Positions 18,643 to 21,265 of a stretch of 42,508 bases of DNA are shown in pieces. The stretch is taken from the IMG/VR virus record IMGVR_UViG_3300046660_000087, positions 1 through 42,508 of that record; one strand, written 5' to 3'. The position numbers were made by a program, and so were the translations under genes. Position 1 is the first letter of the stretch; each line of letters begins with the position of its first letter. This DNA comes from a virus. The notes under the pieces were generated by a model, which saw nothing but the letters and a program-made list of their open reading frames with translations, was not told the DNA's origin and ran no database searches.

Positions 18643-18798
18643 ATGGCAAACGCAACAGTCCTGGCCGGTGGTCAGATTAATGGTTCGGGCGCAACTGACG
18701 CTCTGTTCCTGAAGGTTTATGGCGGTGAAGTTCTCACGGCATTCGACCAAAACAACGTGGTCATGCCGCTGCATACCGTCCGCACTATCTCGTCTGGT
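18643..18798 (+). CDS. Major capsid protein, exon 1 (T7 gp10 type)
   Basis: The first 52 codons of the capsid gene, MANATVLAGG through TVRTISSG. The segment DALFLKVYGGEVLTAF matches the T7 gp10 N-terminus (KLALFLKVFGGEVLTAF). After codon 52 the frame meets a stop two codons into the intron, so without splicing only a 53-residue fragment is made. The exon ends with CGTCTGGT (18791-18798), which pairs with GCCTGACG in the intron to form P1. Spliced to 19435. Confidence 0.92.
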
Positions 18799-19434
18799 GA
18801 ATAAGCAGTTCACTCTTGCCTGACGTTAAACACCGCGTTAATTGCTGGGACACCCCTCAGGGGCAATCAGCAGCCAAGCCTGACCTAACGGCAGGAAGGT
18901 TCAACGACTATCCCGAAAGGGAGTAGGGAGAATGCTCTCCCCAAATGCGCGGCACTATCTTAAAAGGAAATAGCAATAGCAAAATGACGACGAAGGTCTG
19001 TCGTATTTGCCGGACTGAAAAGCCGCTTGGTGATTTTTATGAACGAAGGGACTCCGGCGTCCACCGTAATGAATGTAAAGAGTGCACAAAGGAATTGCAC
19101 CAATACAAGAAGTACGGGGTTTGTAACACCAAGTATGATGAAATGCTGACCGCCCAACATGGGAAATGCGCAATCTGCTCGTGCACGCTTAACAGCTCAC
19201 GATACACAAAACTCGCAATTGACCATGACCACAAGACCAATGAGGTCCGTGGACTTCTCTGTACCAATTGCAATACTGGCATTGGCCTGTTCAAAGACAG
19301 CCCGATTCGCCTATCCAGCGCTATTGAGTACCTGAAGCGGTTTGATAGTAAAGATATAGTCTGAGCTGTATGGCAACATACAGGTGGGTTAATTCCCCGG
19401 TAGGGCTTCGCAAGCCTTATTGAACATCGCACTG
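18799..19434 (+). ncRNA. Group I self-splicing intron in the capsid gene
   Basis: A 636-nt intron. P1: exon end CGUCUGGU pairs with GCCUGACG (18818-18825) through 7 of 8 positions, ending in the required U-G pair. P10: CACUCUU (18811-18817), directly upstream, pairs perfectly with the first seven bases of exon 2 (AAGAGUG). P4: UGCUG 18843-18847 with CAGCA 18868-18872. P5: CCCC/GGGG 18853-18863. P7: GACUA 18906-18910 with UAGUC 19357-19361. A P9-type hairpin at 19366-19383 has a 7-bp stem and GCAA loop. The last base is G. Joining 18798 to 19435 restores TVRTISSG-KSAQFP, as in T7 gp10 (ISSGKSAQFP). Confidence 0.95.
18984..19364 (+). CDS. Intron-encoded HNH homing endonuclease
   Basis: A 126-residue nuclease of the HNH / recombination endonuclease VII-like group. 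N-terminal CRIC and CKEC pairs (zinc), then CAIC, the catalytic core IDHDHKTNEVRGLLCTNCNTGIG. Such enzymes cut intron-less alleles and spread the intron. The ATG at 18984 has AAAGGAAA upstream; an in-frame ATG at 18945 is less likely. The gene fills the loop between the two P7 strands (P8 region), and its stop codon directly follows the 3' P7 strand. It looks more AT-rich than neighbouring genes, as expected for a mobile element. Confidence 0.92.
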   Translation: MTTKVCRICRTEKPLGDFYERRDSGVHRNECKECTKELHQYKKYGVCNTKYDEMLTAQHGKCAICSCTLNSSRYTKLAIDHDHKTNEVRGLLCTNCNTGIGLFKDSPIRLSSAIEYLKRFDSKDIV

Positions 19435-20220
19435 AAGAGTGCACAATTCCCTGCAACGTGGCGCGTCACTGGTGGTTACCACACTCCGGGCCAGGAAATC
19501 GTTGGTCAGACTTCCAACCTGAATGAACGCAATATCACGATTGATGACCTCCTGGTTTCGAGCGTGTTCATTGCTGACATTGATGAAGCGAAGTCGCACT
19601 TCGACTACCGCAGCATCTACTCGCAGGAAACGGGCCGCTTCTTGGCAGCGAACTGGGACAAGAACGTGATGCAGGTTATGGCTCTCGCAGCCCGTGCTTC
19701 GGCTACGGTTACGGGTGCTGTTGGCGGCACGGTTCTCACCTCGGCTACCACGCTGTACAAGACCTCGGCAACGGACCTCGCTGCTGGCATCTACGCTGCA
19801 GTCCAAGCGTTCGATGAGAAGGACATCCCGCAGACCAGCGAGAAGAGCGCTATGGTTCGCCCGGCTCAGTACTACCTGCTGGCCCAGAGCACGGCCCTCG
19901 TGAACCGAGATTGGGCTGATGGCAACGGCAATTACGGTACGGGCAAGATTCTCCGTATCGGTGGTGCCAACATCGTGAAGACGAATCACGTGCCCAGCAC
20001 GAACGTCACCACGGGCCCGACCGCTTACCAAGGCGACTTCACGAAGACGGCTGCAATCGTCACCACGAAGGAAGCTGTGGGTACGGTGAAGCTGCTGGAC
20101 CTGTCGATGCGCATGAGCTATGACGAGCGCCGCCTTGGCACGCTCATCGTGAGCAAATACGCAGTTGGCCATGGGATCCTTAGGCCGGAATGCGCAGTGG
20201 AACTGGTTACGACCTCGTAA
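19435..20220 (+). CDS. Major capsid protein, exon 2 (T7 gp10 type)
   Basis: Supplies the remaining 261 residues of a 313-residue capsid protein (T7 gp10A has 345). It starts KSAQFPATWRVTGGYHTPG and includes NITIDDLLVSSVFIADIDEAKSHFD (T7: VITIDGLLTADVLIYDIEDAMNHYD) and the C-terminal AVGTVKLLDLSM and YAVGHGILRPE, all diagnostic of HK97-fold T7 capsids. An ATG at 19420 in the intron is in frame but is not the biological start. The TAA stop at 20218-20220 directly abuts an in-frame HNH gene. Confidence 0.95.
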   Translation, partial: KSAQFPATWRVTGGYHTPGQEIVGQTSNLNERNITIDDLLVSSVFIADIDEAKSHFDYRSIYSQETGRFLAANWDKNVMQVMALAARASATVTGAVGGTVLTSATTLYKTSATDLAAGIYAAVQAFDEKDIPQTSEKSAMVRPAQYYLLAQSTALVNRDWADGNGNYGTGKILRIGGANIVKTNHVPSTNVTTGPTAYQGDFTKTAAIVTTKEAVGTVKLLDLSMRMSYDERRLGTLIVSKYAVGHGILRPECAVELVTTS

Positions 20221-20589
20221 TTGGAATCGAAGTGCTGCAGGAAATGCCGGGAGGTTAAACCCCTCTCGGACTTTGAATGGCGTAATGATAACAAGAAGTA
20301 TCGGACTGAATGTAGGCTCTGCCGCGCCGATTCCGTATGCGCTGCCCGCTACGGACTAACGGTTGACGAGCTTCACATAGTCTACGATCAGTTCGGACAT
20401 CAGTGCGCTATCTGTGGTGCTTCGGAGAGCAACAACACCTCTCACTACCGGCTGTCGATTGATCATTGTCACTCGACTGGTAGGGTCCGTGGTCTTCTAT
20501 GTTCCAGATGTAACACGGCTATAGGGCAGCTCCAGGATTCCCCTGTGCTGGCTCTGAAAGCCGCAGCCTATCTCGAAGCAAACTCGTAG
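20221..20589 (+). CDS. Second HNH endonuclease, directly after the capsid gene (TTG start)
   Basis: A 122-residue paralogue of the intron-encoded nuclease, with the same layout: CRKC and CRLC pairs, CAIC and the core IDHCHSTGRVRGLLCSRCNTAIG. It begins at the codon following the capsid TAA and is in the same frame. TTG is the only usual start that keeps the first Cys pair, and no ribosome binding site is visible, so expression would need termination-reinitiation or stop read-through. It lies before the capsid terminator and has no intron signals around it, so it looks like a free-standing mobile gene. Confidence 0.85.
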   Translation: MESKCCRKCREVKPLSDFEWRNDNKKYRTECRLCRADSVCAARYGLTVDELHIVYDQFGHQCAICGASESNNTSHYRLSIDHCHSTGRVRGLLCSRCNTAIGQLQDSPVLALKAAAYLEANS

Positions 20590-20596
20590 TACCCAT

Positions 20597-20638
20597 AAGG
20601 GGGATTCTCTGTTCATTCAGGGAGTCCCCCTTTTTTTC
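20597..20638 (+). terminator. Strong rho-independent terminator after capsid/HNH
   Basis: A 15-bp stem (AAGGGGGATTCTCTG with CAGGGAGTCCCCCTT, two G-U pairs, 6-base loop) followed by seven T. It matches the position of the T7 late terminator behind gene 10, which lowers expression of tail genes relative to capsid. Confidence 0.9.
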
Positions 20639-20662: not shown

Positions 20663-21265
20663 ATGGCATCCGCTTTGATGACCGAACTCGAAGCAGTGAA
20701 TATGTGTCTCGCTGCTATCGGAGAGTCTCCGGTCAACACCCTACAGAACACTGGCCTGGCAGACGTTGCATCCGCGCGCGCCAAGCTGCTTGAATTCAGC
20801 CGCACCGTTCAGTCCACAGGCTGGGCATTCAACACGGAAGAGATGTTCCCACTGCTGCGGAGCTCCGATGGCACCATCACGGCCCCCGCGAATTCCCTCA
20901 AGGTCTCCGTAGACCGCACAGTATCAAGCGCTCAGGTCTCCCTCCGTGGCCTCCGGTGTTACGACAAGGCCAACCACTCATACACCTTCACGCAGGACCT
21001 GAAGGCCACCGTGGTGTTCTTCCTGGACTGGGAAGAGCTCCCTCAGACTGCACGCCAGTACATTGCAGTGTGCGCTGCTCGCTCTTACCAAGGCACCAAC
21101 CTGAGCTCCGACACGTTGGACAAGCTCTCAGAGGATGACGAGGTAAAGGCGCTCATCGCACTTAAGGATGCTGAAGGTGATGATGGTGACTACAACATGT
21201 TTTATGACAGCTTCAGTGTGGCCGATGCGTGGCTGCGCCCAGAGGCAGCGGTGACCACGCGTTAA
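20663..21265 (+). CDS. Tail tubular protein A (T7 gp11 type)
   Basis: A 200-residue protein forming the ring between connector and tail nozzle. T7 gp11 has 196 residues. Typical opening LEAVNMCLAAIGESPVNTL and the WAFNTEE and YDKANHSYTF segments fit the family. Overlaps the nozzle gene start as TAATG. Confidence 0.93.
   Translation: MASALMTELEAVNMCLAAIGESPVNTLQNTGLADVASARAKLLEFSRTVQSTGWAFNTEEMFPLLRSSDGTITAPANSLKVSVDRTVSSAQVSLRGLRCYDKANHSYTFTQDLKATVVFFLDWEELPQTARQYIAVCAARSYQGTNLSSDTLDKLSEDDEVKALIALKDAEGDDGDYNMFYDSFSVADAWLRPEAAVTTR

Follow-up and report, generated by a model that had tools for sequence, protein, structure and literature searches.

A predicted free-standing homing endonuclease gene that begins directly after the stop codon of a T7-like major capsid gene

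Homing nucleases adjoin or flank essential genes and lie at boundaries of exchange, where neighbours can in principle co-operate (Barth et al. 2023, PMC10448857). How the expression of most free-standing homing nucleases is controlled was termed an unaddressed question in a review of T4, in which mobE overlaps nrdA through the sequence UAAUGA and coupling was proposed as a way to limit endonuclease synthesis (PMC2988022). In the RNA phage GA, the coat and lysis genes meet at UAAUG, and the SD-less lysis gene is reached by reinitiation and read only by ribosomes that have finished the coat gene (PMC9955659). Termination–reinitiation operates over a range of about -8 to +10 nt, needs very short distances and falls off steeply with distance (PMC10666635).

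Here we describe a stop–start junction in the window, by which we mean the whole 42,508-nt stretch of viral DNA that was analysed (IMG/VR record IMGVR_UViG_3300046660_000087). Directly after the stop codon of its major capsid gene lies an endonuclease VII/HNH gene, probably a free-standing homing endonuclease gene made at a low level by termination–reinitiation on the capsid mRNA. Like T4 mobE, it is a free-standing HNH gene that lacks any discernible initiation region and whose start codon is joined to the stop codon of the essential gene before it (PMC2988022). Unlike mobE, it follows a T7-like major capsid gene and encodes a nuclease of the endonuclease VII type, and whereas the free-standing endonucleases of T4 start with AUG (mobA with GUG), every allele found here starts with UUG, abutting the UAA or lying 1–4 nt after it. 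As in phage GA, an SD-less gene stands downstream of a coat gene, but the phage and the gene product are unrelated to those of GA, in which the AUG overlaps the stop. A nearer match than GA is phage fr, whose lysis gene depends on UUG. Stop–start coupling of free-standing homing nucleases has already been proposed, for mobE; what is new here is the use of UUG rather than AUG, the major capsid gene as the upstream partner and the occurrence in several T7-like lineages.

The nuclease gene and its junction with the capsid gene

The locus comprises the following features, all on the plus strand.

18643..18798, +: exon 1 of the major capsid gene (gp10A-like), reading MANATVLAGG...RTISSG and joined to exon 2 as ISSGKSAQFP
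18799..19434, +: group I intron in the capsid gene (RF00028, 84.1 bits at 18777-19383), with 87-89% identical introns in L051 and L052
18984..19364, +: intron-encoded endonuclease VII/HNH protein, with an alternative start at 18945 (PF02945, 1.2e-23)
19435..20220, +: exon 2 of the major capsid gene, ending ...GHGILRPECAVELVTTS TAA (PF21703 Gp10A-like, 5.7e-78); 89-94% identical relatives end at the same codon
20218..20223, +: stop–start junction TAA/TTG (capsid stop and HNH start codon) with no SD upstream; TTG also stands at 0, +1, +2 or +4 nt in six other alleles
20221..20589, +: free-standing endonuclease VII/HNH gene, 122 aa (PF02945, 1.1e-21; Hpy99I 3fc3, 1e-6; T4 endonuclease VII 1e7d, 4e-4), missing in 9 close relatives
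20587..20589, +: HNH stop codon TAG, matching the TAG of the empty-site flank TACACAG/TAG/TACCCATA in the junction comparison
20599..20637, +: hairpin and T run resembling an intrinsic terminator after the capsid–HNH unit, judged from sequence, in the position of the T7 T-phi terminator and directly after the capsid stop in empty relatives
20663..21265, +: gp11-like tail tubular protein A, an ORF in the gp10–gp11 gene order of annotated relatives

The ORF table agrees with the original prediction that a TTG at 20221 abuts the capsid TAA (20218-20220) and opens a 122-aa frame in the capsid frame. On profile and alignment evidence, 20221-20589 is a genuine gene of the endonuclease VII/HNH family: its product scores 76.9 bits (E 1.1e-21) against Pfam PF02945 Endonuclease_7, where the cut-off is 23.6, and falls in PHROG 2633, endonuclease VII (8.8e-31). 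Residues 3-119 align to 3fc3 (Hpy99I) and residues 49-105 to 1e7d (T4 endonuclease VII), in keeping with a zinc-bound HNH-type core, and C62, C65, D81, H82, H84, C94, C97 and N98, which make up two CxxC zinc pairs and the DHxH...N motif, are invariant among the aligned HNH proteins. Unlike Hpy99I, a restriction enzyme, and T4 endonuclease VII, a Holliday-junction resolvase, the post-capsid protein is a predicted homing nuclease.

The TTG is the only apparent way into this frame, in which no ATG, GTG or further TTG precedes the zinc and catalytic motifs of the HNH core. The reported lack of a ribosome binding site held up: the best anti-SD pairing upstream of the TTG reaches -2.2 kcal/mol, weaker than the window background median of -3.1, and values of +0.4 to -2.8 kcal/mol against the same median in the five alleles of the window clade reveal no SD in any of them.

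In the window and L048, TAATTG lies within the stem of a hairpin, which was set aside as a control element; L054 and L043 do not preserve the hairpin, and it is formed by capsid codons that empty alleles also carry.

Occupied and empty sites and the history of the nucleases

Searches with the capsid brought in 69 loci, among which we define close relatives as those whose exon-2 protein is 89-94% identical to that of the window. Comparison with such phages lacking the insert had been proposed as a check, and nine close relatives do have an empty site: these contigs (L044-L047, L049-L052 and L067) run from capsid stop to terminator, typically as TAA/TACACAG/TAGTACCCATAGGGGG... into the terminator. 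The site is occupied in the window, L043, L048 and L053-L059, which carry five distinct HNH alleles (one each in the window, L043 and L048, one gene shared by L053-L056 and L058, and one shared by L057 and L059). The other four alleles of this clade are 34-48% identical to the window HNH protein, and all begin with TTG directly after TAA except that of L043, where it lies one base later. The site is also empty in relatives whose capsids are 64-77% identical, L060-L065 and L094 among them. Two distant T7-like phages, found through related nucleases, share the layout, with TAA-CA-TTG in L210 and TAA-CAAG-TTG in L318 and the HNH gene between capsid stop and terminator, followed by gp11. L043, L048, L210 and L318 are represented by one contig each.

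Because the HNH stop codon coincides with the TAG of the empty flank, the insert amounts to roughly the coding frame alone. The nuclease ORF is free-standing in that it lies outside any intron or intein and is itself the insert. No Rfam intron was found at the capsid end in the window, L043, L048, L054, L057 or L210; a hidden second intron at this place was rejected, there being no Rfam match and no insert beyond the ORF.

Two further features vary among these alleles. The capsid C-terminus reads GILRSEC in L053-L059 and LRPEC in other close relatives, possibly through co-conversion or an altered nuclease target. An extra Cys-rich N-terminal stretch of about 44 residues (PCxHCGxTxxY...CVN...GHREM), with no Pfam match above cut-off, is present in L043 (3788-3919), L048 (3787-3918) and L057 (1371-1502).

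The presence or absence of the gene at one exact site among close relatives is what a homing gene would produce, and the alleles bear further signs of exchange. L054 and L057 have capsid exons 2 that are 97.4% identical, HNH proteins that are only 45% identical in amino acids and downstream flanks that are 75.8% identical, whereas downstream of the nuclease L057 shares 96.3% identity with the empty L044, a pattern that has been described for nuclease genes at exchange boundaries (PMC10448857). L057 (1-4367) and L059, two separate contigs, are mosaics with an L054-like capsid, a downstream region 96% identical to the empty L044 and the HNH gene at the boundary. No clear co-conversion signal appeared in 60-nt bins near the insertion. 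Related post-capsid alleles are under purifying selection, with NG86 dN/dS values over the alignable parts of 0.10 (L048/L057) and 0.15 (L043/L057). Together, family membership, polymorphism, purifying selection and mosaic flanks point to a homing gene. Presumably such a nuclease would nick or cut alleles with an empty site, close to or at the 3' end of the capsid gene, and the HNH gene would thereby be copied into them during co-infection.

These observations also bear on whether the post-capsid ORF could be a homing endonuclease relic that is no longer expressed, its expression signals having been lost on insertion. Homing endonuclease genes commonly degenerate after homing, and this ORF has no ribosome binding site of its own. 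We nevertheless regard a relic as very unlikely: the frame is intact, the catalytic His, Asp and Asn and the zinc cysteines are conserved, dN/dS is low among related alleles, and seven distinct alleles retain an intact frame with its start at the stop.

The capsid gene of the window also houses the group I intron with a nuclease of its own. The intron boundaries were inferred from the open joined frame and the U/G splice rule (splice 18798/19435). The two nucleases are related, as originally described, with 42% identity along their length and aligned Cys pairs, and they do bracket the capsid; the bracketing, though, is a coincidence of two separate elements. Among close relatives, the window, L051 and L052 carry the intron, the latter two with an empty post-capsid site, and every other relative with a post-capsid HNH gene and a covered capsid is without the intron, so that only the window genome has both. 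The dN/dS of the intron nuclease is 0.05-0.18 among the three intron copies. Nuclease genes beside essential genes at exchange boundaries recall the HEG islands and collaborative homing described elsewhere (Barth et al. 2023, PMC10448857; Bonocora and Shub 2009). Unlike in collaborative homing, there is no sign that the intron and post-capsid nucleases travel together.

From a set of 119 taxa, trees were built with FastTree and as reduced trees. In the reduced tree, the post-capsid nucleases form one group with those of L125, of L156 and L214 (from the capsid neighbourhood) and of L032/L036, with SH-aLRT 98.2 and a weak UFBoot of 38, and the intron nucleases of the window, L051, L052 and L242 stand apart from it (92.7/99). 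The post-capsid and intron nucleases thus fall in different clades, which argues against the former as a duplicate of the latter, and their places on different family branches indicate that they are independent elements. The post-capsid group itself would reflect either one ancestral insertion with later swapping or several insertions, which are indistinguishable at UFBoot 38.

At its 3' end, the capsid gene of the T7-like L125 (1397-2993; also L126 and L211-L213) is interrupted by a group I intron (...MAVG/HGVIRPEC) that contains an endonuclease VII ORF; this site differs from that of the window intron. The L125 insertion point, AVG/HG, corresponds on the window capsid to a spot 51 nt before the end of the stop codon. 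Since the related L125 nuclease comes from a capsid-3'-end intron and groups with the post-capsid nucleases, a target in the conserved capsid 3' end is a reasonable inference.

Proposed translation of the nuclease from the capsid message

Lying between the capsid stop and the terminator, the HNH gene would ride on the abundant late capsid mRNA. A small fraction of the ribosomes that end at the capsid UAA may then start again at the UUG that lies 0 to 4 nt further on, giving an HNH output that would track capsid synthesis and would be low because the start codon is weak and no SD is present. The starts of the seven distinct post-capsid alleles, all TTG and placed 0, 0, 0, 0, +1, +2 and +4 nt after the capsid TAA, lie within the reinitiation range of about -8 to +10 nt. 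Relatives in which the gene has a normal start and ribosome binding site would have contradicted the original prediction, and there are none among the seven alleles, which all begin with TTG and have no visible SD (judged by eye in L210 and L318). Starts placed -8 to +6 nt from the preceding stop are seen in 13 of the 41 successive plus-strand ORF pairs of the window, so close coupling seems to be common practice in this genome. TAATG or ATGA overlaps provide the starts of many window genes (15672, 21265, 6211, 3181 and 34765). Counting against reinitiation, UUG is an inefficient start.

The original prediction held that the gene can only be made by reinitiation or by read-through of the capsid TAA. 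Reinitiation stands as the likely route, the read-through fusion is unsupported, and "can only be" is too strong, as independent SD-less initiation at the TTG is a further, less likely route. Read-through would give a minor capsid–HNH fusion comparable to T7 10B, and its stated size of about 436 residues is correct because the spliced capsid has 313 aa. In the window, L048, L054 and L057 the HNH frame does continue the capsid frame without a further stop between them, but in-frame placement is a trivial outcome of abutment. In L043, L210 and L318 the HNH gene is out of frame, and an extended capsid would end after IG, H and QVAD (2, 1 and 4 codons), respectively. The stop is TAA, rather than a typically leaky UGA or UAG, in each of the seven occupied alleles and of the nine close relatives with an empty site, and the TTG falls opposite the ATG of the intron homologue in the alignment. 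With three alleles out of frame and TAA throughout, the shared mechanism must be initiation at the TTG; the in-frame extension is not conserved, which rules out a fusion as the shared product, and we consider read-through an extremely unlikely account of the gene. A frameshift product of the T7 10B type does not apply either, since the HNH gene is already in the capsid frame and no shift is needed. That trace read-through in the four in-frame alleles might also yield a fusion built into virions as a minor side product lies at the very edge of plausibility; if true, such a fusion would carry a homing nuclease into the next cell.

Initiation at the TTG might instead be the work of free ribosomes, independent of an SD and uncoupled from capsid termination. 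Several window genes have weak predicted SDs, so SD-less initiation may be usual in the host. However, all seven starts are UUG and lie 0-4 nt from the capsid stop, unlike those of endonuclease VII genes elsewhere. Drawn from 229 distinct endonuclease VII places and limited to genes with one possible start, the count elsewhere is 63 ATG, 7 GTG and 4 TTG (n=74). The contrast between 7 of 7 and 4 of 74 gives a Fisher p of 9.5e-8 when genes are counted as independent despite their relatedness; the seven nucleases are related and therefore not seven independent samples. Moreover, the SD-less downstream gene of phage GA is read only by ribosomes arriving from upstream (PMC9955659). Uncoupled initiation thus seems rather unlikely to us, and termination–reinitiation is the reading that we prefer.

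In Klebsiella and related T7-like phages, the HNH genes that lie between gp11 and gp12 start with ATG and carry AAGGAGG, so an SD-less TTG belongs to the post-capsid position and not to T7-like HNH genes in general. One of them, an endonuclease VII gene with a strong AAGGAGG in Klebsiella phage kpssk3 (L206, 1762-2169), is unannotated in its GenBank record. Among the matches inspected from a chimeric capsid-plus-HNH query of GenBank phages, the nuclease lay between gp11 and gp12 or upstream of the capsid.

Implications for T7-like phages

As a selfish gene the post-capsid nuclease is of an ordinary kind, but its arrangement is unusually regular and informative. That distinct alleles, and distant T7-like phages, share the start codon and its position suggests selection for weak, coupled expression. 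The locus offers a testable case of a selfish nuclease that would use the stop codon of a major structural gene as its ribosome loading site, so that the nuclease dose would follow capsid synthesis without a ribosome binding site of its own. The 3' end of the capsid gene also stands out as a place where nuclease genes are swapped and recombination boundaries arise in these phages.
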